The notes below the pieces were generated by a model. That model was not told the origin of the DNA, made no database searches, and saw nothing but the letters and a program-made list of their open reading frames with translations. A program made the translations under genes and the position numbers. This document shows, one piece after another, positions 7,963 to 20,010 of a stretch of 20,010 bases of DNA. Within the stretch, counting starts at the first letter, position 1, and every line of letters starts with the position of its first letter. The stretch is from a virus. The stretch is from IMG/VR virus record IMGVR_UViG_3300034062_005405, positions 1-20,010 of that record; one strand, given 5' to 3'.

Positions 7963-8786
7963 TATACAGGTGGATTAAGGTATTCATACCATTTTATGGG
8001 AACTGTGGTCCCGAGTCTCTGTCCATTACTATTAACTACCTGATATGTTTGGTTTTTATAATCCAAATTTACGACATAATAAAATAGTACGTTACTATCA
8101 AAATCATATTGATTAGAACCAAGAGCGAAATTTGCTTGAGGTCCTTTTGGTTGACCATTGGTCTCATTATCTGTCATCAATTTAGTGAATTGTCCGGTCT
8201 TAGCATTATAAAATTTAGCGGACATATAAAAGGTATTAATATCCAAAAAATTCCTGTTCTTTAACCAATAAAGAAAAAACCCTTCTTTATCACCAACATA
8301 ATCTAAAACAAATTTTGGTTTTCTAACATCTACAACAATTCTTTGCATTTGAGTTGTCATTTTCAAACCCTGTTGTGTCGGAATAATAACCGTTAAATAA
8401 TTTGTTTGTTTTTTTTCATCCGTATTATCGTAAAAATCTAATTTAAAAAATGAATTAGAAAAATTGTTTGTATAATAATATAAATCTTGAGGTGTAAATC
8501 CCTCACCTAAATAATTTATCTTCCAATTGTTAATATCATAAGTTGAACCTCCCGAATAAAAATAAAACTCATAATTAATTTCAGTATTATTTGTTGTTAC
8601 ATCAGGAGCATGGGCAAATCGACTGATTTCAAAGTCACGCCCAACACCAATTGCTTCGGTAATAACTTCAGTTTCATATTCTTCGATTGCCATATCCAAT
8701 CCTAAATAATCCCAAGTCAGTCTTACCGGTATATTGATTTGTTTATCAATACCATCAGGTACTATAGTTACTTTATTCACACTCAT
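7962..8786 (-). CDS. Putative baseplate protein, 274 residues, unrecognised
   Basis: I place the start at the ATG at 8786 (MSVNKVTIVPDGIDKQINIP). A TTG codon at 8789 directly before it is in frame, but nothing supports its use. The gene overlaps the end of the 566-residue gene by 14 bases and its stop overlaps the next ATG as TAATG. The N-terminus (TIVP at 7-10, DKQINI at 14-19, WDYLG at 25-29) resembles the N-termini of the two preceding proteins, suggesting a common docking segment. The rest is rich in Tyr, Phe and Asn and appears beta-structured, for example YEFYFYSGGSTYDINNW. No signal peptide, membrane segment or catalytic motif is seen. I do not recognise the family. It lies in the position of the T4 outer wedge genes, so an outer baseplate role is plausible. 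Confidence 0.78.
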   Translation of the reverse strand: MSVNKVTIVPDGIDKQINIPVRLTWDYLGLDMAIEEYETEVITEAIGVGRDFEISRFAHAPDVTTNNTEINYEFYFYSGGSTYDINNWKINYLGEGFTPQDLYYYTNNFSNSFFKLDFYDNTDEKKQTNYLTVIIPTQQGLKMTTQMQRIVVDVRKPKFVLDYVGDKEGFFLYWLKNRNFLDINTFYMSAKFYNAKTGQFTKLMTDNETNGQPKGPQANFALGSNQYDFDSNVLFYYVVNLDYKNQTYQVVNSNGQRLGTTVPIKWYEYLNPPV

Positions 8787-10473
8787 CAATTAATGGTTTT
8801 ATCGCAAAATCAGTGCCATATAGGCTCTCGTTATAGTTTATTCCTTCCGGTATTAATCTAAAAGTAATATCCGAGAATGGGTAGTGGGCAGTATTTAAAA
8901 ACGGATAATCAACTCCTCTTTCTAAATTATCAGTAAAACCATAAGTATACAAATCTCTCCATCTAAATTGTTGGTCGGCACTTGAATAAAACGAGTAACT
9001 AGGTACTTGGTCAATAAAATCAATATCACCGGTTTCAATATAATCCGAAAAAACCCTTAAAGTCATACTGTTATGAGGTTGATAATAAAACCCTAATGAA
9101 TTAGTGTCCGGATTATTCATTGTTTGGAAAACTGTTTGATTATAATTTATTTTATGAAAATATGGAGAAATCACTCTCTCAATTTGCTCATAATCATTCC
9201 ACTCACAAAAATCACCATCCATCACATCACCCTTCATTAAATCACCATTATAATAGAAAGTTTTAGTAGCACCACTAGTTTGAGTATATGAAGATAATGG
9301 AACTGTTGTATTTGATTCATTATTAACTAAATCCCAATATTCATTAACCTCTTTAGTTAAATTAAATTCCCAACCTTGTTTTAATCCCACCCCATATGAA
9401 GGTTCATTAAAATATCCGGAATATCCTTTGTTAACAATAGTTAAGAAAATCTCACTTAATGGTCGTTTTTGATTATCCAAATATCCCGCAAAATCTAAAT
9501 CATACGCCGATGTCATATTATAAGCGTTACTACTTGTTTTTTGAGAGATTCTTGAAATTTGATTAGGTGTTATTGAACTATACTCGAATTGTTTATCTTC
9601 TCGAAATACATTCTTTTCAAAACCAATTTTAGTAACAATAATATCATCTAAATTAGTAATCACTTTATGTTCTCTAACATAATATTTTGATTTGGTTTCT
9701 GTTAAATTATCAGGATTAATTACTCTTTTAAAAGTACCCATAACATTATCACCAAACGTCGTACCGGTATATCCAATATCTAAAACATTAAATACATACT
9801 CATCACTATCAAATAACCCGTTACCCAATGAGTACACTTGGAATATGTTTGAATTCCTATATGTTAAAGATAATTCAACGTACTCATTCGGTGTTAATCC
9901 ATGAGACCCAATACATTTAAAAGATATTAGACCATTACCATTAATTTCAATATTTTCAATAATAAATGGAATACCTTCTTCAGCTAACCAATCCATATCC
10001 CCATTAGGTAAATCAGAATAATAAACCAACTTCTTTTTATAGTTATTAACATGAGGATATGTTAAATAATACATCCAATTATATGTGTAAGCACTTTTTG
10101 ATTTATAAGGAAAATGTTGATTATCCACAATTGGTCTAAAAAAATCAAACTCATAATACTGTGGAAACCCCTTCCAAGTTCCACTGACAAATGATTGTTC
10201 AGGGTTTACATAATACAAATTATATTGGAAAGGTAAAAATGTTGTGGTTCCCGTATAAGTGTTGTCATACAAATACTTAACCTTAAAAGTTGGTCTAAAA
10301 ACAGTACAACCTTGCCTCTCGTCATCATAAACTTGAGCAAGACTTATTGTGGCACTTCTATCGTATTCCGTTATCTCATGACTTGTTTGGTCTAAAGATA
10401 TTGAAACTTTTTCATCAACAGAAGGAGCCCCTTTATATTTAAGGTTACTTGGTATTATTGTGTAATTATTCAT
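8773..10473 (-). CDS. Putative baseplate protein, 566 residues, unrecognised
   Basis: The protein begins MNNYTIIPSNLKYKGAPSVD and ends DFAIKPLIDECE. It is unusually rich in Tyr, Phe, Asn and Asp, as many phage structural proteins are, for example FPQYYEFDFFRPIVDNQHF. Near the N-terminus, TIIP (5-8) and DEKVSISLDQ (20-29) resemble TIVP...DKQINI of the 274-residue protein and NKTINVQLDQ of the 1784-residue protein. No membrane segment, signal peptide or enzyme motif is visible. The ATG at 10473 overlaps the end of the giant gene by 8 bases and there is no Shine-Dalgarno sequence, so translation is probably coupled. Context suggests an outer wedge component; the family is unknown to me. Confidence 0.78.
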   Translation of the reverse strand: MNNYTIIPSNLKYKGAPSVDEKVSISLDQTSHEITEYDRSATISLAQVYDDERQGCTVFRPTFKVKYLYDNTYTGTTTFLPFQYNLYYVNPEQSFVSGTWKGFPQYYEFDFFRPIVDNQHFPYKSKSAYTYNWMYYLTYPHVNNYKKKLVYYSDLPNGDMDWLAEEGIPFIIENIEINGNGLISFKCIGSHGLTPNEYVELSLTYRNSNIFQVYSLGNGLFDSDEYVFNVLDIGYTGTTFGDNVMGTFKRVINPDNLTETKSKYYVREHKVITNLDDIIVTKIGFEKNVFREDKQFEYSSITPNQISRISQKTSSNAYNMTSAYDLDFAGYLDNQKRPLSEIFLTIVNKGYSGYFNEPSYGVGLKQGWEFNLTKEVNEYWDLVNNESNTTVPLSSYTQTSGATKTFYYNGDLMKGDVMDGDFCEWNDYEQIERVISPYFHKINYNQTVFQTMNNPDTNSLGFYYQPHNSMTLRVFSDYIETGDIDFIDQVPSYSFYSSADQQFRWRDLYTYGFTDNLERGVDYPFLNTAHYPFSDITFRLIPEGINYNESLYGTDFAIKPLIDECE

Positions 10474-13400
10474 CTATCGAATATAGTTCTTTAAATTTAT
10501 CTAAAGCTGTCTCACCTTTTATTAACCCAAAATAGAAATGATTTGGGGCACCAACCAAATATTTTTGAGTTGGAACATCCCAATTACCCGCATCAGCAAC
10601 ATAACTAAAGTCAACAACATTTGTTGCAGTCCCATTAAATAAATATCCACGAGCAAATAGGTCGCTGATACTGTAAATTGATGGAATCATATAACTTGGA
10701 TTAATAATTGCTCTCCTATCAAGAGACTGATATTTTCTTGAAAAAATGTCACTTGTATTTGTTGCCCAATTATTTCCTTGGTCACCAAAAACACCCGCAT
10801 TAGGAGTGTCATTTATCCTCCATTGGTAATATGGAACTTCTTGAGATTTAATACCATAAGGATATGTTATCGCGTTTGCGTTATTTGATGGTCTAAAATC
10901 AATAACACCTGGGGTTAAGAAATCTTTGTTTTGTAAATCTTGAGTCGTTGATGAGAAAAATACCGCCATTGTTGGGTCACTAGACCCCGCTAATATCTGT
11001 ACTGGGTCATCAACAGAACCCGTAACTTGATAAAACTCAGGTGAAAATGGTATTACCCCATATTCAGAATTAATCGACATTGATTGTGCTAAGTCCGCAT
11101 CAATTCTTCTTGAACTACCATCTCGAGTAAATAACTGTTGCAATGAATTATCACCTAACGCAATAATTTGCCCTAAAAATCCCTCATCTGTAATTCTTGA
11201 AATAACAAATAAATTAACTAAATCTGATGTATCCGAATAACTTGTAGGTGCTAAACTTTTCATTATGTACCCTTTTGCCGATGGGTCAAAAATTATTTCT
11301 TGGTAAAAATCATCTTTTATACCTAAATTAATAATTGTTGTTGGGAATAATAAATTTCTTCTATTTACAGGGTTTCTTAAACCTGATACCGGTCTCCCAA
11401 TAAATCTACCTAATCCTGAAGTACTATCAGTTATTCTATACGGAGAACTTCTATAATAAAAATTATTAGTATCTTTTTCAAAATATACTACCTCATTAGC
11501 AAATCTTGGTGCTTCAGGTTGATTTAATTTATTAAAATAGGTATCAACTTGTATTGGAAATGCATATAAACTACCGTTAACCCAATTATTCATAAATGAT
11601 TGTGATAATACTCCTCGACATAAACCATAGAAGAATCTAAACCTGAATCCCCATTCTGCGAATGTCCCTAAATCTTGTCCCAAATCAATTAGTGGTTTAT
11701 TAACCATTATGTAACAACCATTTTCAACAACGTCACCAGCTTGACATCCCGGTTTTACACCAAAGTTCACACCGTTTCCTTGATAACAATCCAATCCAAC
11801 CATCTCTTCACAAGTACCTAAAGTATTTAATACGTTAGTTGCCCCAATTTGTCCTTCAATATCCGCAGTTACTAAATCAGCACCTAACGAAATTGATGGA
11901 TTATTAAATAATTGACCACCCCCTCCAATAGGATAAACAGCAAATCCTAGGTTTTGTTGTAATAAACTAACACTACCTGTTAAAATTTCCGCATTATCAA
12001 TATAATCAGAAGATGGTAATCTATCAGTTCTCATAATAATTTGAGATGAGCTAGTCATATTAACTTCAGATGTACCTGTATATCTTGGATATAATATAGG
12101 ACTAAAGTATGTTGTTTGAGGTAAACCCCGGAAATACCACTCATCAAATCGCCAAGAAAGAAAACTGTTAACAACATATGGCCCAAAGGACGCTATAATA
12201 GCCCCTCCGGATAAATCTTCAGAACCATCATAAAAACTATTAGAAATGCTCGAAGAGTAGAAACGATTATTTGTTTTTGAAGTAACACCTCTTAATGGTG
12301 GTGCCCCTAACGGTAAAAAAGGTTGTTGAATATAGTTTGTCGAAACTAACGGATTTATTGATGGAGCTAATGCTGGTGTACTAACTTGAGGTATTGGGTT
12401 TAACGATGAGTCCAACGCTCCATAAAACCCAAAATTAGGAGTTGTATACGCAGAATAATTAAGCCCCGGACTTGTTTGTCCCGGAATTCCCGGTGTATAA
12501 AAATAAGATGAATAACATATATTATTTTGATTACCATGATTTTGAACCGAAATACCATTAGTCGTTGGTGGAAGAGCTTGTATTGGAATATTCATTCTTG
12601 TCATCGCGGTAAAAGTCACCGCATCTTCATTTGGATATCCTAATATACGTCCAATACCATATTTATTCATCATTAACGGAGAATAAGGGTCAACCCCTCT
12701 TTGTAAAATAAGAACTTTTTGATTTTCATAATCTTCAAAACTTGAAGTTGGTAATGTATAAGTAGCCAATGACAATGGGTTATTTACGGACCTAGGGATA
12801 GGTCTATAATTTGGATAAGTAAGAGGAAGATAATTACCCTCAAAACTACTTTGATAAAAAGTAATTAATTTATTTTCAGCATTTAACGTATTCCAAAAAC
12901 TTGAACCAGTTTGATTATCACCCGGAAATGAATATTGTGGTTCTCCATTAACAATTGTTTTAGTAATAGTAATAGCGGTCAATACCTGATAATATTCAAT
13001 ATCCGATGGATAAATATAATTTTGACAACCCACACCATAAGTTACCGCAGAATACTCCGCGGTACCACCTGTATTTGTTAAATCAATACAATCAACATTT
13101 GTAATACCTGTAACTAACGGAAATTCAGGACTAATAATTCCCTCAGGATTAGTAGTACCTGATGTTTGACCTGTAAATAATAAAGTCACTTTAGAACCCG
13201 GACAAGTTCTATAAGTCACAGTTCCCGGTTCGGTTATTGAAATAACCATACTACTCACACATTCAGCCGGATATGCGGGAATATCATAAGTAACAACCGT
13301 ATCGGAAGTTTGAGTAAGAGCATAACGAACATTAGCAGTAAAAGCACTTGTCTTAAGGATACCATTAATACCATTAACAATATAACCTCCCGATGCTGTG

Positions 13401-15820
13401 GTTGCAGAATATAAATAATTTTTATCTTTAGTTTTTAATGGGTCAACAAATGATAATAATGTACCCGGAGTTAAATCCGTAGTAGATAATACTGTTAATG
13501 TATTATCAAAATGACTTCTTGTACCGTTTGTTGCTAATGAAAAAGTAACTTTAATTTTATTTACATTATCAAAAAATTTCTTTCGAGTATTATAAATATT
13601 AACCCTTTCACCAGGAGGTATTGTTGTTCCTTGTGATGTATTACCCCCTCCATCAGGAAATGTGTAAACACCCGAATTATTAGTTTTAAAAATTGTTGGA
13701 TTTTTTGGTTTAACTGACCGACCAGAAATCGCCTCAGCTTGCATATTTGATTCCAACTGAAAATATGAATCATAATCTTCATTATCAGGACCAATACCGG
13801 GCCAAGTACGATTTGGTATTGAAAGACTATTAGCCTCTAAACCAGCAGAATATAAACCAGGTTGTGACAATTGAGATATTAACCCAGGAGATGGACTAGA
13901 TTCTTCCGTTGCATCCTCTCCACCCGGTTCAGTACTTTCTGGAACACACTCACAAGACTGACAATCAGGATAAGTTATCATTGGTAATTTAATTCTACCA
14001 AATTTATAACTAGTAATTTGTTTAAACTTAAAAATTAAAAACGCCGCTGCTAAAGTATACAATAAAGCCATTGCAAAAAACCCGGCAATCAAACCCGCAG
14101 TTGCACCAAACGCAGCGGTACCGGCAACCGCTCCTCCAAATAACGACCAATAATTAGTTGCGTTTGCCGTAAAATTTACAATAAGATAAGCAACAAGTAT
14201 AACCGCAAAATTATTCCATAAAAAGGCTAAAAAATGATAAATTATCAAAACAGGTAACCCAATTAATTGTATTACTTGTAATATTATTGAAAATATAAAA
14301 AAGAATAAATCAAAATTTCTAAATCCTTCATTAACCGGGAATTTATTAATAGTGGAAGCACATTCATTACTATCAATTTCTTTAATACCAATAAATCTAC
14401 CTTTAGCACCATTTTTAAATTCATCAATAAAACCTGAGACAGTATAAACTTTATTAAACTCAAACTGATAAAAAGTATCCTCACAATTTATTTTTTGATT
14501 TAAAATATTGTTTTTCAACTCTACAGTAGAAAACCCTTCTGTATATCCTGACCAATCAAGTCCAAAATAATATGAACTTTTTTGTCTCTGTTTATTTTGA
14601 GCACTAGCGTTTGAACTAGTAGGGTCACCATTATCCGATGACCACCCATATTCTTTGACATTTGGAACTAAGAAATAAGCACGTCTTGTTTGTTCTGACA
14701 AACTAGGAGACTGAGACCACTTAACTTTAAATCTATATTTTCCTTTAGTTGGAATACCTACTGCAGGGTCATTTGAAATTACTTTTTCACCAAATTCATT
14801 GGTAATAAAATAATCCAAATTCATTGGTAATTCGGTTAACCAAACCCCATTACCATCAATAATATTACCTGACTTTTCTAATTGGAATAGTTCAAGTATT
14901 GGATTACCGTCTGCATCATAATTAATTGTTTGTCGTATTGCTAAAATAGACCCGGGACCCGCAGCCAATTCACATAAATTACCCATATCGTCCTTTGGCT
15001 TGGCATTTCGTCTAAGTCTCTGTGAATCAGCAGTTGAGTAAATAGACCCCATGAATACCGAAGTTGGTTGTATGTCTATATTGGCATCATCTCTAAGGTC
15101 AAAGTCAACACGGTTAACCGCAATTTGGCATATTTCAGGGTCACCCCATAATGGCGCAACCGATAAAGTTCTTGTTAAACTTACAATTTGTGGTAATGAC
15201 GATAAATCATTTGAGGTTTTAAAACGGTTACCGGCAACTTGACCTTCAGTTGCTAATCCCATTCTAATTAAATCCTGAGGAGTTAAAGAAAATTCCCCAA
15301 TATCTGATAAGTCAACATCCATTACTAAAGTTTGCGACCCTAATGGAACCCCCATTATCATATAGTCACCACTCTCGTTTGTTTTTGTTGTGTATTTGTA
15401 GTATTTGTCGTAAATTTCAACCGCAATTCCATCGGTTAACGCATCATCTCTTGTAGGTAAAGTACCTGTTGCTGCGTGAGCAGAATATGACTTTTCATAA
15501 GGTAAAAGATTATACCTAAAACCATCTTCATTTTTATCAGTTGGAGATTTATAAGGGTAGATACTTGATATCAGTGGATTAGATTCATCAACCGATGATA
15601 TTGGGATAAACACTGATACTCGGGCATTTGGAATACCAAAACCATTATTTGCAGTAACCCTTCCAACAACAACACCGTATTCTGAACAACTTCTACTATA
15701 AACGTCAGTTTGTTGTATTTTTAACGATAAGATTTCTAAGAACTCAAAATCTTGGTCTAACTGAACATTAATTGTTTTGTTAATACCTAATTCGGTTCTA
15801 ATTCTATATGACTGACCCAT
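10466..15820 (-). CDS. Giant baseplate protein with carboxypeptidase-regulatory-like domain and hydrophobic segment
   Basis: This 1784-residue protein follows gp6, where T4 has gp7 (about 1030 residues), but I see no clear gp7 motif. Residues 12-30 (NKTINVQLDQ) form an N-terminal motif resembling those of the two following proteins. Residues about 47-172 match a carboxypeptidase-regulatory-like beta-sandwich: GVVVGRVTANNGFGIPNARV at the start and ESGDYMIMGVPLGSQTLVM at the end, with an insertion of about 65 residues between. Residues 505-597 are strongly hydrophobic, with about four potential membrane spans. They are followed by a Cys cluster (C620, C623, C625) and an acidic Glu/Ser/Pro-rich linker to about 660. 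The remaining 1100 residues are Tyr/Asn/Ser-rich, beta-type and unrecognised. The ATG at 15820 has AAAGGA 7 bases upstream, the best ribosome binding site in the window. It is probably a virion protein; wedge assembly plus a membrane role at infection is speculation. Confidence 0.8.
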   Translation of the reverse strand: MGQSYRIRTELGINKTINVQLDQDFEFLEILSLKIQQTDVYSRSCSEYGVVVGRVTANNGFGIPNARVSVFIPISSVDESNPLISSIYPYKSPTDKNEDGFRYNLLPYEKSYSAHAATGTLPTRDDALTDGIAVEIYDKYYKYTTKTNESGDYMIMGVPLGSQTLVMDVDLSDIGEFSLTPQDLIRMGLATEGQVAGNRFKTSNDLSSLPQIVSLTRTLSVAPLWGDPEICQIAVNRVDFDLRDDANIDIQPTSVFMGSIYSTADSQRLRRNAKPKDDMGNLCELAAGPGSILAIRQTINYDADGNPILELFQLEKSGNIIDGNGVWLTELPMNLDYFITNEFGEKVISNDPAVGIPTKGKYRFKVKWSQSPSLSEQTRRAYFLVPNVKEYGWSSDNGDPTSSNASAQNKQRQKSSYYFGLDWSGYTEGFSTVELKNNILNQKINCEDTFYQFEFNKVYTVSGFIDEFKNGAKGRFIGIKEIDSNECASTINKFPVNEGFRNFDLFFFIFSIILQVIQLIGLPVLIIYHFLAFLWNNFAVILVAYLIVNFTANATNYWSLFGGAVAGTAAFGATAGLIAGFFAMALLYTLAAAFLIFKFKQITSYKFGRIKLPMITYPDCQSCECVPESTEPGGEDATEESSPSPGLISQLSQPGLYSAGLEANSLSIPNRTWPGIGPDNEDYDSYFQLESNMQAEAISGRSVKPKNPTIFKTNNSGVYTFPDGGGNTSQGTTIPPGERVNIYNTRKKFFDNVNKIKVTFSLATNGTRSHFDNTLTVLSTTDLTPGTLLSFVDPLKTKDKNYLYSATTASGGYIVNGINGILKTSAFTANVRYALTQTSDTVVTYDIPAYPAECVSSMVISITEPGTVTYRTCPGSKVTLLFTGQTSGTTNPEGIISPEFPLVTGITNVDCIDLTNTGGTAEYSAVTYGVGCQNYIYPSDIEYYQVLTAITITKTIVNGEPQYSFPGDNQTGSSFWNTLNAENKLITFYQSSFEGNYLPLTYPNYRPIPRSVNNPLSLATYTLPTSSFEDYENQKVLILQRGVDPYSPLMMNKYGIGRILGYPNEDAVTFTAMTRMNIPIQALPPTTNGISVQNHGNQNNICYSSYFYTPGIPGQTSPGLNYSAYTTPNFGFYGALDSSLNPIPQVSTPALAPSINPLVSTNYIQQPFLPLGAPPLRGVTSKTNNRFYSSSISNSFYDGSEDLSGGAIIASFGPYVVNSFLSWRFDEWYFRGLPQTTYFSPILYPRYTGTSEVNMTSSSQIIMRTDRLPSSDYIDNAEILTGSVSLLQQNLGFAVYPIGGGGQLFNNPSISLGADLVTADIEGQIGATNVLNTLGTCEEMVGLDCYQGNGVNFGVKPGCQAGDVVENGCYIMVNKPLIDLGQDLGTFAEWGFRFRFFYGLCRGVLSQSFMNNWVNGSLYAFPIQVDTYFNKLNQPEAPRFANEVVYFEKDTNNFYYRSSPYRITDSTSGLGRFIGRPVSGLRNPVNRRNLLFPTTIINLGIKDDFYQEIIFDPSAKGYIMKSLAPTSYSDTSDLVNLFVISRITDEGFLGQIIALGDNSLQQLFTRDGSSRRIDADLAQSMSINSEYGVIPFSPEFYQVTGSVDDPVQILAGSSDPTMAVFFSSTTQDLQNKDFLTPGVIDFRPSNNANAITYPYGIKSQEVPYYQWRINDTPNAGVFGDQGNNWATNTSDIFSRKYQSLDRRAIINPSYMIPSIYSISDLFARGYLFNGTATNVVDFSYVADAGNWDVPTQKYLVGAPNHFYFGLIKGETALDKFKELYSIDE
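14030..14308 (-). other. Polytopic hydrophobic segment inside the giant baseplate protein
   Basis: It encodes residues 505-597. Runs are about 505-534 (LFFFIFSIILQVIQLIGLPV and onward), 538-551 (FAVILVAYLIVNFT), 561-582 (a Gly/Ala-rich run with GLIAGFF) and 583-597 (AMALLYTLAAAFLIF). Only a few polar residues separate them, and basic residues follow (KFKQITSYKFGR). By composition these would be called membrane helices in any cellular protein. Confidence 0.8.
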
Positions 15821-15915: not shown

Positions 15916-17754
15916 TTAAGAGAAGGTAACTGATTGGAAATTTTTAACAGACACTCTAATATCTTTGTTAGGATATCTAACTTGGTACACTTGGGATGGT
16001 TGTGCAAAAATTGTATCATCAACAGTTGCAATTTCTTTAGTTTCAGCATCCGAATATTCCATAGATGTTTCGGCAGATGAATATTGACCTCCAACATTAT
16101 TATAAACGTTTAATCCCGCAACGGTTAATACACCATTTTGATTCTGAACAATACTTTTTAATTCAGATAAATAAACATTTTGACCTAACTCTCTTGTTTG
16201 AGGATTGAAGTAAGTTGAAATTCTGTCAACAACATCCGAAATAACTTGTCCTGAATTTTGAGCAGAATCTAAAACAATCTGAACATCAATACTCAAGTCA
16301 ATTACTTCAGCCGTTAATATTGAAATATAATCATTCATCATTCTATAGTTTGATAGATAATTTGCAACATTCTGTCTTAAAGTATCCGACACAATACTTG
16401 TTAATTTTCCTGATGTATCATAAGATAATAATTGAATTAATATCTTATTATTATTTTCCGTAATTGAAACTTTCGCAGGTGCTCCAAACTCAGCCGGCAT
16501 ATTTCTAATAATTGATTCATAATCTTGAACCGTAACCGCTCTTTTTTGAGCCGAGAAGTTAAACGATACATAGTTTCTAATCTCTTCTAATGACGGTACT
16601 CCAGAACCCCCAATAGCTGCAGTCACGTTGTTACATCTTAATGAATTAACCACGGATGAGTTTGTTGTTTCAGATGGTCCGTTTACAAAGAAGTTTACAG
16701 TACCAATTTGATTAATAACATTTGTCCCTAAATTTGTTGCCAATCCACCACCAACTCGATATTGAATGAATAGTGTTGAGTTAGGAGTTAACGCAGACCC
16801 TAATGAGAAATTGTTTGAATATCTTTGTAAATCAATTGTTGCACCAACTGTTGTAAATTGGTCTAATGAATCTTGAGCGGTATTTGTACCACCACCAAAT
16901 GTCATTTTTTTAAATCCTTCTGGGGTATATTCCGTTATAAATCTATTAGATGTTTGGATATACTTTCCAACCTTAATACCCGGTTGGTCTGATACTTTTG
17001 TTGGGTCTTCGATGAATACTCGGTCTTCCGCAAGTGCGTCAACCTCATACCATTTATTAGATGCCCCTAAAAATTCCGCAGTAGATGGAACATTGGTATA
17101 TTCGGTACCACTTTTCAGTAATACACTTGTAATACCTAACACATTTTTTTCAGGTAAGAATAATTCAAAGAATGGTTTAACATCATTTGGAGTAATAACT
17201 CTTTTGAATACTTTGGTAATACCATTAACAACTAATTCTCTTTTAGTGATTGTATAGTTAATTAAGACATTATTGGCATTGAAGTTAGGTATTTTTAATC
17301 TATTAGGGAATCCTTGTGCATTATATGGTGAAGTAAAATCAACATCATAAATGTTTTCAAACACAATACCCGCACCAACTACTTGAGACCCTCTTGTTAA
17401 CACCCCTAAATATCTTTCATCTTCTTTGTCCCCAAACGCAGGAACCGTTATTGAAAAATCAACCAAAGACACCGATGGTCTTTGTCCCGGTAATTTTAAA
17501 CCATAAGTTCTTGCGATATTATAGATAGACGACCTTTGTTGAGCATATTGTAAAACGGTCTCTTGAATACTTCTATCTATATGGTAGTGTAAGTTATCCG
17601 CAACCGCAGCGTTCAAGTCTAAGAACACAGAGAACACAGAAGCGTCGTTGAAGTCCTGTATTAATTCAGGGTAGTAAGTTCTTACATAGTTTAATAACTC
17701 AGTTCTTATTCCCTGATAATCTCTTGTAGTATATGATATATTACGATTTGCCAT
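15916..17754 (-). CDS. 6: Baseplate wedge protein gp6 / J-like
   Basis: The 612-residue protein has the organisation of T4 gp6 and P2 gpJ. The N-terminus (YTTRDYQGIRTELLNYVRTY, then SVFSVFLDLNAAVADNLHYH and IDRSIQETVLQYAQQRSSIY) is the typical helical core that binds the neighbouring wedge. Residues about 385-420 (PSLEEIRNYVSF...RAVTVQDYESIIRNMP) match the baseplate J-like signature. The C-terminal part (SDVVDRISTYFNPQTRELGQ, then YLSELKSIVQNQNGVLTV) is also characteristic. In contractile tails two gp6 copies per wedge dimerise around the hub to form the inner iris. The length is close to T4 gp6 (660). The gene begins 6 bases after the gp25 stop, without a Shine-Dalgarno sequence, so the two are co-transcribed and probably coupled. 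The start at 17754 fits the family N-terminus. Confidence 0.95.
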   Translation of the reverse strand: MANRNISYTTRDYQGIRTELLNYVRTYYPELIQDFNDASVFSVFLDLNAAVADNLHYHIDRSIQETVLQYAQQRSSIYNIARTYGLKLPGQRPSVSLVDFSITVPAFGDKEDERYLGVLTRGSQVVGAGIVFENIYDVDFTSPYNAQGFPNRLKIPNFNANNVLINYTITKRELVVNGITKVFKRVITPNDVKPFFELFLPEKNVLGITSVLLKSGTEYTNVPSTAEFLGASNKWYEVDALAEDRVFIEDPTKVSDQPGIKVGKYIQTSNRFITEYTPEGFKKMTFGGGTNTAQDSLDQFTTVGATIDLQRYSNNFSLGSALTPNSTLFIQYRVGGGLATNLGTNVINQIGTVNFFVNGPSETTNSSVVNSLRCNNVTAAIGGSGVPSLEEIRNYVSFNFSAQKRAVTVQDYESIIRNMPAEFGAPAKVSITENNNKILIQLLSYDTSGKLTSIVSDTLRQNVANYLSNYRMMNDYISILTAEVIDLSIDVQIVLDSAQNSGQVISDVVDRISTYFNPQTRELGQNVYLSELKSIVQNQNGVLTVAGLNVYNNVGGQYSSAETSMEYSDAETKEIATVDDTIFAQPSQVYQVRYPNKDIRVSVKNFQSVTFS

Positions 17755-17760
17755 ACAATA

Positions 17761-18231
17761 TTAAATATTAATGATAACGAAATCACTCGGTCCGAAAGTA
17801 CTCTTATCGGTTGAGTAATCTATTTTTATTTTTGCGGTATATTCTGAAGTCCCTTTACCCGGAAACCGATAAACAGATGACTCACTACTTCCCACCGTTG
17901 CGGTGCCCATAGCCAAATCAACTTCTTCTTGAGGGTCAGCCGGTGATATAGTAATTTGATTTAATAATAAATTCGGCATAAATGTACCAACAGCTTCCCT
18001 AATATCAGATTCAATTGCGTCAAAAGTTAACCCATCAAATGGTTCAAATAAAAACTCATAAAGTCTTGTCCCAAATGTTGGTAAATAATATCTTGAACCT
18101 TTTCGAGTCAAAAGTAAGTGAATTAAATCCGCCTTAATTTCTTGTGATTCTAATTCTGTAAGTTGTAGATAGTCACCTCTTACCGAATCCCTAAAAGGAA
18201 AATTAATACCATATGTTGTTCCGTTTGCCAT
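17761..18231 (-). CDS. 25: Baseplate wedge protein gp25 (W-like)
   Basis: The 156-residue protein matches the GPW/gp25 family: GINFPFRDS at 8-16, EIKADLIHLLLTRKGSRYYL at 31-50, FGTRLYEFLFEP at 53-64 and then a helix with AIESDIREAV. The segment LLTRKGSR...P.FGTRLYEFLFEP is the family signature; in T4, gp25 is the component at the heart of the wedge that joins gp6 and primes sheath polymerisation. Although named lysozyme-like, the family is structural in this context. The length is slightly above T4 gp25 (132), with a C-terminal extension rich in Ser/Thr. It is the first gene of the tail block, behind the terminator of nrdA and a TATTTATAA element. The start at 18231 gives the usual short N-terminus. 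Confidence 0.95.
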   Translation of the reverse strand: MANGTTYGINFPFRDSVRGDYLQLTELESQEIKADLIHLLLTRKGSRYYLPTFGTRLYEFLFEPFDGLTFDAIESDIREAVGTFMPNLLLNQITISPADPQEEVDLAMGTATVGSSESSVYRFPGKGTSEYTAKIKIDYSTDKSTFGPSDFVIINI

Positions 18232-18325: not shown

Positions 18326-20010
18326 TTATGAACCACATCCAAAACATTCAAATTCTGAATCTGTTGGTTTTACTGTAGGTTCAACAAGATTCACTTTTGG
18401 TTTCTCTTGTTTAACTGTTGATTGATTAACTTTCGAAATATCCACCGCTAAGTGTTTTGCTCCGGTTGATATTGCTTTAGTCCTAACATAATAACAAAGA
18501 GTTTTTAATCCTTTACCCCATGAATGGAAGTGTGATGATGAAATTTTTGATAATGTTGGTTCTGACATATAGATATTCATTGATTGTGATTGGTCAATAA
18601 ATGGTGCTCTGTCAGCCGCCATATCAATAAGTTCTCTTTGAGATATTTCCCAAATTGTTTTGTATTTTGGAATTAAATGTTCAATTCTTTTAACTTTCTT
18701 GTTGTAATTTTTGTCTTCTTGGTCAAGATAATTATTAAAGTTAATGTTTTGAACCGAACCTTCATTCATAATGATTTCATTTTTCAAATCTTCAGACCAA
18801 ATACCAATTTTTTCAAAATCATTAATTAAGTATTTGTTAACAATTAAGATTTCCCCTCCAACCACACGACGATTAAATAAAGCCGAGTGAGCCGGTTCTG
18901 TCATTTCAAATGAACCTGTAATCTTAGCTGAAGACGCAACTGGCATCTGAGCCGTGAATAACGAGTTACAAACCCCGTGGTTGGACACTTCTAATTTAAG
19001 TGAATCCCAATCCCACATTCTACCTAATCCTTCATAATCTAATCCCCACATATCAAATTGAAAAATTCCTTTTGACATTGGTGAACCATTAAAAAATTCG
19101 TATGGTTTGTATTCACCTGATTTACATAATTCCATACTCTCGGTGATTGCCGCGAAGTAGATAGTTTCAAAGATTTGTTTATTAAGTTTTTTTGCCTCTT
19201 CAGTTGTGAAGATATAATCCATTAAAAAGAATACGTCAGCAAGACCTTGTGTTCCAATAGCAATTGCTCTTTGTTCTAAACCACCTTTTCTACCTTGTTC
19301 AGTTGAGTAACTATTAATATCAACAACTTTGTTAAGTGCTCTCACAACTTTTCTAACTTCACTGTAAAGTAATTTAAAATCAAACTCACCTTTAATGATA
19401 AAGTTTTTTAATACCATTGATGATAATGTACAGATTGCTGTGGTGTTCTCATCAGTATATTGGTAAATCTCATTACATAAGTTAGATTGTTTAATAACCC
19501 CAATGTTTTGATGATTTGTTTTTCTATTAGCGCTATCCTTAGAACATAAATAAGGAACTCCCGTTTCAACTTGAGATTCAATAATTTTGTTCCAAATTGT
19601 TTGAGCTTTAACTTTCTTACCTAAACCAAGTTCAACGGCTTTGTTATAATTCGATTCATACTCATCACCATAAGTTTCTTGTAATGGTTTAATTCCCGCC
19701 TTTTTAATATCATTAGGACAGAACAAATACCAATCATCGTTGTTCTTAACCGCATTCATAAAGTTGTCCGGTAACCAAATTGAAGTAAATAAATCTTTTG
19801 CTCTCAACTCTTCGGCCCCCGTATTCTTTTTGATTTCAAGTAAGTCAATAATGTCTTTATGCCAAGGTTCAATGTAGATAGCAGCACTACCCGGTCTTCT
19901 TCCTTGTTGATTAAAGAACCTTAATCCTTCATTAACAATTTTTAAGTATTTTAGTAAACCACCAGCAAATCCACCTGATGAATTAATACGACTCTCTTTA
20001 CTACGAATGT
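18326..20010 (-). CDS. nrdA: Ribonucleoside-diphosphate reductase large subunit, 5' end outside window
   Basis: The frame is open to the right edge and gives the last 560 residues. Visible motifs are QQGRRPGSAAIYIEPWHKDI, the active-site NLCNEI (Asn, Cys and Glu of the NxCxE motif; Cys codon at 19475-19477), CTLSSMVL with the Cys that pairs with the missing N-terminal active-site Cys, SMNIYMSEPT, the Tyr pair in LCYYVRTKA for radical transfer, and a C-terminal CFGC that re-reduces the active site. All identify a class Ia-type alpha subunit that reduces ribonucleoside diphosphates to deoxyribonucleotides with an NrdB partner, which is not in this window. The apparent start at 19807 is an internal TTG, since conserved sequence continues upstream of it (GAEELRAKD). 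All catalytic residues that can be seen are intact. Phages use this enzyme to supply dNTPs for genome replication. The gene ends in a strong terminator. Confidence 0.97.
   Translation of the reverse strand, partial: IRSKESRINSSGGFAGGLLKYLKIVNEGLRFFNQQGRRPGSAAIYIEPWHKDIIDLLEIKKNTGAEELRAKDLFTSIWLPDNFMNAVKNNDDWYLFCPNDIKKAGIKPLQETYGDEYESNYNKAVELGLGKKVKAQTIWNKIIESQVETGVPYLCSKDSANRKTNHQNIGVIKQSNLCNEIYQYTDENTTAICTLSSMVLKNFIIKGEFDFKLLYSEVRKVVRALNKVVDINSYSTEQGRKGGLEQRAIAIGTQGLADVFFLMDYIFTTEEAKKLNKQIFETIYFAAITESMELCKSGEYKPYEFFNGSPMSKGIFQFDMWGLDYEGLGRMWDWDSLKLEVSNHGVCNSLFTAQMPVASSAKITGSFEMTEPAHSALFNRRVVGGEILIVNKYLINDFEKIGIWSEDLKNEIIMNEGSVQNINFNNYLDQEDKNYNKKVKRIEHLIPKYKTIWEISQRELIDMAADRAPFIDQSQSMNIYMSEPTLSKISSSHFHSWGKGLKTLCYYVRTKAISTGAKHLAVDISKVNQSTVKQEKPKVNLVEPTVKPTDSEFECFGCGS

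Follow-up and report, generated by a model that had tools for sequence, protein, structure and literature searches.

A conserved and modular hydrophobic block in a giant baseplate-operon protein of uncultured contractile-tailed phages

Introduction

Could a phage baseplate protein carry the helices that breach the host membrane? The tape-measure protein is the usual suspect for the passage of contractile-phage DNA across the inner membrane, and the locus described here raises the question of a different carrier. The window (the whole stretch of DNA analyzed: 20,010 nucleotides, positions 1 to 20,010 of virus record IMGVR_UViG_3300034062_005405) is a 20-kb IMG/VR virus fragment whose genes are transcribed leftwards. 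Directly downstream of a gp6-like baseplate wedge gene it encodes P0001, a protein of 1784 amino acids (aa) with an uncharged, strongly hydrophobic block at aa 505-597. An initial annotation, made from the letters of the sequence, had described this block as being as hydrophobic as a four-helix membrane domain, between large soluble, beta-rich regions, and had suggested that it could be buried in the baseplate and released at sheath contraction to open a membrane for DNA. Here, we examine the block, its conservation and its predicted structure, and weigh what it may do.

Results

The hydrophobic segment lies exactly where the initial annotation had placed it (Table 1). Its mean Kyte-Doolittle (KD) hydropathy is 1.71, compared with -0.20 for the whole of P0001. 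In 2000 composition-preserving shuffles the best 93-aa window reached 1.21 and the longest uncharged run was 67 residues versus the 93 observed; together with the conservation described below, this rules out chance hydrophobicity. A sequencing error or frameshift in P0001 is also ruled out: the full-length protein recurs in four other contigs with 100% best-segment identity. For the calling of transmembrane (TM)-like helices we used our own re-implementation of a published scale of insertion free energy (dG), validated on controls: the T4 holin scored -2.81, and no helix was called in nine other proteins of the window or in ten of 12 T4 tail proteins. On this scale the block holds three confident helices rather than the four first described, the fourth being only a weak Gly/Ala-rich stretch around 556-576. 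The same stretch does score as a helix in some relatives, for example those at loci L057 and L037. The flanks of the block differ in charge: the 25 aa that immediately precede the YPxC motif contain on average 4.3 K/R versus 1.1 D/E (125 relatives), and the flank before the block is acidic (2.1 K/R versus 5.8 D/E).

Conservation of the block is strict in position and loose in length. In each of the 125 non-redundant relatives with enough sequence to score, this site holds one or more hydrophobic helices. The block is framed by motifs whose family consensus reads KFPVN(D/E)GFRNFD before it and LPMITYPDCxxCxC after it; in addition to the four invariant residues listed in Table 1, C625 is invariant (alignment A1), and the YPxCxxC motif could be a metal or disulfide clasp that closes the block. 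Short-form relatives (see below) carry additional cysteines just ahead of this motif. The first hairpin is kept in sequence, with Q518 in 101, G521 in 98 and H529 in 106 of the 126 aligned sequences. Beyond it identity drops to 0.29-0.48, yet mean KD stays at about 1.0-1.8 (25-aa windows; 1.0-2.1 across the block), while 65 other P0001 windows with identity below 0.5 have a mean KD of at most 0.48. Two forms can be told apart by the distance between the motifs: a long form (about 117-137 residues, three to four helices), to which P0001 of the window belongs, and a short form (62-107 residues, usually one or two helices and often a Cys-rich tail). In a tree built from the first 480 residues, switches between the forms number at least eight on well-supported branches and 15 by parsimony, and the extra helices therefore behave as an exchangeable cassette. 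In a few relatives (L130, L122 and L116) the C-terminal half carries a further hydrophobic segment, near aa 1010-1030 (KD 2.2-2.7).

AlphaFold2 was run on residues 1-800 of P0001 as a monomer (93-row alignment, mean predicted local distance difference test score (pLDDT) 70, predicted template modeling score (pTM) 0.41). The model has a continuous helix at 505-567 and another at 574-597, with a pLDDT of 72-92 over the block, and linkers below pLDDT 50 flank these helices at 466-504, which holds the KFPVNEGFRNFD motif, and within 614-640. As modeled, the block would be a helical module apart from the beta domains, with no compact soluble core, and the low-confidence linkers beside it are probably flexible. 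The regions on either side are predicted to be large, soluble and mostly beta, as first described. Within the family the N-terminal region is conserved best, mostly at 0.7-0.9 identity; its match to PF13620 is weak (E=0.0036, 18.1 bits, below the gathering cut-off of 32.3), and a Foldseek search with its model returned DUF3823, pilin, teneurin Ig-like and Cna_B/CarboxypepD_reg beta-sandwiches at low TM-scores. The C-terminal 1189 residues were predicted better than the N-terminal 800, and Foldseek found nothing significant for them in the PDB (best E 0.058) or BFVD (E 0.0025, prob 0.12). P0001 as a whole is mostly beta and its content of helix formers is low (0.28 in the homologue on contig G003), unlike a long helical tape measure.

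Table 1. Features of P0001 and of its neighborhood, in window coordinates
Feature	Residues of P0001	Coordinates (strand)	Remarks
P0001, 1784 aa		10466..15820 (-)	single open frame; 'gp7 position' directly downstream of gp6
N-terminal soluble region	1-480	14381..15820 (-)	predicted beta-sandwich domains, CarboxypepD_reg/Cna_B-like
Motif KFPVNEGFRNFD	493-504	14309..14344 (-)	just before block; P495 126/126, F494 124/126, D504 118/126
Hydrophobic block	505-597	14030..14308 (-)	93 residues without D/E/K/R
TM-like helix 1	505-527	14240..14308 (-)	dG -1.27; conserved core, kept in all relatives; includes Q518, G521
TM-like helix 2	530-552	14165..14233 (-)	dG -0.96; conserved H529 precedes
Weak Gly/Ala-rich fourth segment	556-576	14093..14155 (-)	not called in P0001; replaced or absent in short-form relatives
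TM-like helix 3	577-599	14024..14092 (-)	dG -2.21; positively charged flank follows
Cys motif LPMITYPDCQSCEC	612-625	13946..13987 (-)	after block; Y617, P618, C620, C623 invariant 126/126
C-terminal soluble, mostly beta region	626-1784	10469..13945 (-)	AlphaFold2 mean pLDDT 78.7
Ribonucleotide reductase-like open reading frame (ORF)		18326-20008	leftwards
gp25-like baseplate wedge protein		17761..18231 (-)	Pfam PF04965 E=2.5e-10, PHROG_261
gp6-like baseplate wedge protein (Baseplate_J)		15916..17754 (-)	Pfam PF04865 E=4e-8, PHROG_219 E=1e-21; adjoins P0001 upstream
566-aa protein, family unknown		8773..10473 (-)	start overlaps P0001 stop by 8 bp; same operon
SprB-repeat protein		796-2931	tail operon
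Thr/Pro-rich repetitive ORF		1-402	continues beyond window edge

Relatives of P0001 with the same block after gp6, of the kind the initial annotation had suggested looking for, are abundant. One scan of IMG/VR returned at least 489 loci, and further scans with diverged members reached about 35% best-segment identity; all of these relatives are on unannotated metagenomic contigs. P0001 matched no PHROG, no INPHARED protein or record and no PDB sequence or profile, and a scan of bacterial genome contigs with one diverged member as query found no prophage copy. The gene order is conserved: gp6 stands directly upstream in all 122 loci that have upstream sequence, in the order gp25-gp6-P0001, followed by genes for proteins of 566, 275, 363, 302 and 995 aa. 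A contractile sheath is encoded in each of the seven long P0001-bearing contigs tested (104-309 kb). We infer from gene position that P0001 is a previously undescribed, huge protein of the tail base.

A separate candidate for the tape measure was found in relatives of the window. On the 165-kb contig G003, genes for a sheath, a HAD-like, a tube-like (162 aa) and a gp26-like (247 aa) protein, the last three labels being our own reading of the sequences, are followed by one for a helix-rich protein of 616 aa. By position and composition, and with weak Pfam support, the latter is probably the tape measure of this lineage. It has no hydrophobic segment in any of 13 relatives (minimum dG +4.0 to +5.7), and no PHROG match was found for it (L262:5948-7798 and L269-L281). 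The T4 tape measure gp29, for comparison, has one hydrophobic segment (dG -0.11). Among the large structural candidates in the tail block of G003 (0-53 kb), TM-like helices are called in the P0001 homologue alone; the remaining TM-like calls there fall in a ribonucleotide reductase subunit and in small frames overlapping larger genes. The lack of such segments in the candidate fits the suggestion, already made in the initial annotation, that a role usually given to the tape measure is carried elsewhere. A survey of large aquatic Bacteroidota phages (moraphages) reported no tape-measure gene (PMC12619734); PF00152, the lysyl-tRNA ligase that is a moraphage core gene, was found in one of ten P0001-bearing contigs, which may be fragments, and placing these contigs among the moraphages is not supported.

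Discussion

Building on what was computed here (the sequence, its conservation and synteny, the helix prediction, and a tape-measure candidate free of hydrophobic segments), we favor, with somewhat less than even confidence, an explanation in which the block acts as a helical cassette with membrane activity, stored in a baseplate protein, freed at contraction and inserted into the host envelope. The hairpin at aa 505-552, lengthened by one or two helices in some lineages, would be held between two soluble beta-rich halves, and in the complete tail base the helices would be shielded from water. Rearrangement of the baseplate and contraction of the sheath would then free the helices for insertion into the host envelope. 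There, acting in several copies (six per baseplate should P0001 be a gp7-like wedge protein), they may contribute to opening or tethering the membrane so that DNA can enter, a task of the tape measure in T4 or TP901-1 and of the tail-knob loops in phi29. The interpretation first given to the block is partly supported. A bolder version, which we consider doubtful, is that a large, uncultured lineage of contractile phages, probably infecting Bacteroidota, moved its breaching helices from the tape measure to an internal, lineage-swapped cassette of a giant protein in the wedge position of the baseplate, which would open or tether the membrane at contraction.

Several points weigh against this proposal. 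Between 15 and 18 of the 125 relatives have only one confident helix, too few on its own for a multi-span pore, and no pore-lining face emerged from the conservation moments of the helices, which are not significant. P0001 has no detectable homology to gp7 or to any solved baseplate protein, and its presence in the virion is itself something we infer. The 616-aa tape-measure candidate gave no match to T4 gp29 in hhalign. Moreover, monomer models (800 aa, pTM 0.41) cannot show how partners would cover the helices.

One close parallel is gp7 of T4 (L282:8061-11159), which is also large, is encoded directly after gp6 and carries a hydrophobic helix. According to the initial annotation, the wedge proteins of T4 or P2 lack a segment of this kind; T4 gp7 does have one, at 879-900 (FVHPVGFGFIGITLLTMFI), nearly invariant across Tevenvirinae. 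The contrast holds in part, the gp7 helix being single and marginal (dG -0.22). A note in the RefSeq record of gp7 describes the C-terminus as a predicted integral membrane domain, and no study on the function of this helix was found in the literature searched. The two proteins differ in that gp7 has its one marginal helix near the C-terminus of 1032 aa, whereas P0001 has three to four in the middle of 1784. A comparison of profiles (44 rows for P0001, against Tevenvirinae gp7) by hhalign gave a probability of 0.4%, and because no homology between the two is detectable we have not filed P0001 as gp7. P0001 shares the gene position of gp7 and, more strongly and with several spans, its hydrophobic-helix oddity. 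By gp6 similarity (about 28% identity), the nearest records are Flavobacterium phage immuto, Microcystis phage Mel-JY01 and the uncultured LR756508. Each has a large protein (1265-1400 aa) nearby, downstream of gp6, without a hydrophobic segment, and homology of P0001 to these proteins was rejected (hhalign probability 0.2% or less).

The example of gp7 also gives weight to the most serious alternative, namely that the block is a permanently buried hydrophobic bundle, packed between baseplate subunits or with gp6, as the single helix of gp7 may be, and has no activity on membranes. A wedge protein can carry such a helix, as shown by gp7, which is present in several solved baseplate entries, and the conserved Q518 and H529 within the block could be packing contacts. 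Nonetheless, P0001 has three segments with dG of -1 to -2.2 where gp7 has one at -0.22, it has no detectable homology to gp7, and an uncharged run of 93 residues is unusual for a soluble bundle. Moreover, the extra helices vary in sequence and in presence yet stay hydrophobic, and no helix face is conserved. On balance we think permanent burial unlikely.

Precedents for a stored, membrane-active block come from other tail proteins. The tape-measure proteins of T4 (gp29, which has a hydrophobic stretch; PMC11948020), TP901-1, in which the first hydrophobic region is essential (PMC5099701), and phiCD508, whose gp59 has a three-helix TM domain (PMC11948020), all combine a tail protein with a hydrophobic block implicated in opening the host membrane. 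P0001 differs from them in being rich in beta structure and encoded in the baseplate operon, and the lineage has a separate tape-measure candidate without such segments. In phi29, hydrophobic loops of gp9 exit the tail knob to build a barrel of helices (PMC6542822); these loops, and the pore-forming tail-knob loops of Andhra (PMC9710869), are examples of a tail protein that stores hydrophobic helices. As computed here, P0001 likewise has a hydrophobic helical segment within a soluble protein, which its gene position suggests is a tail protein. The phi29 and Andhra systems are nevertheless of short-tailed phages, with the knob at the tip of the tube, and we claim no homology.

Alternatively, while the baseplate is being built, the block might anchor it to the producing cell's inner membrane or orient it there. 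Such an anchor has a precedent in Cis13 of the thylakoid-anchored injection systems, a protein associated with the baseplate and fibers whose TM helix ties the contractile machine of Anabaena to the membrane (PMC8894136), and the K/R-rich flank after the block, with the acidic one before it, is as expected under the positive-inside rule. In Cis13, however, the helix is single and C-terminal and the protein remains in the producing cell, whereas the block of P0001 is internal and a free virion would need to leave the membrane. The same charge pattern would also put the N-terminal 500 aa outside, yet no signal peptide is seen, and no anchoring partner is known; we therefore regard assembly anchoring as improbable. 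Least probable in our view is that P0001 is a non-virion membrane protein (an assembly factor or one for host take-over) whose place in the baseplate operon is coincidental, as its lack of a family link to any structural protein in PHROG or the PDB would allow, given the strict gp25-gp6-P0001-566 aa-275 aa-363 aa-302 aa-995 aa synteny, the overlap of its reading frame with that of the next gene, and an architecture that, being very large, beta-rich and Ig/Cna_B-like, is of the kind usual in tail parts.

What sets this widespread family, present on several hundred viral contigs, apart is a conserved, modular block in a baseplate-operon protein and none in the tape-measure candidate. If the block does act as a stored membrane-active cassette, the baseplate would have a direct role at the membrane. 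The family also draws attention to the nearly invariant hydrophobic helix of T4 gp7.

Other features of the window and of related contigs

The 566-aa protein encoded after P0001 is syntenic in relatives and has no hydrophobic segment on the dG scale. Like it, the 275-, 363-, 302- and 995-aa proteins that follow have no convincing family. The tail sheath protein (L262:10274-13474) is 1066 aa long; sheath homology is confined to its last 300 residues, and the first ~770 match no family. Two giant proteins of 2509 and 1675 aa (L261:12029-19558 and L262:871-5898), without PHROG or Pfam matches, are encoded in the stretch that separates the DNA genes from the tape-measure candidate.

The tail operon of the window runs on from the 995-aa protein to the SprB-repeat protein, named for a repeat of the gliding adhesins of Bacteroidota, and this is followed by the Thr/Pro-rich repetitive ORF. 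Both are probably host-binding parts. The presence of the SprB-repeat protein and the similarity of gp6 to that of a Flavobacterium phage are the sole basis on which we take the hosts of the P0001-bearing phages to be, probably, Bacteroidota.

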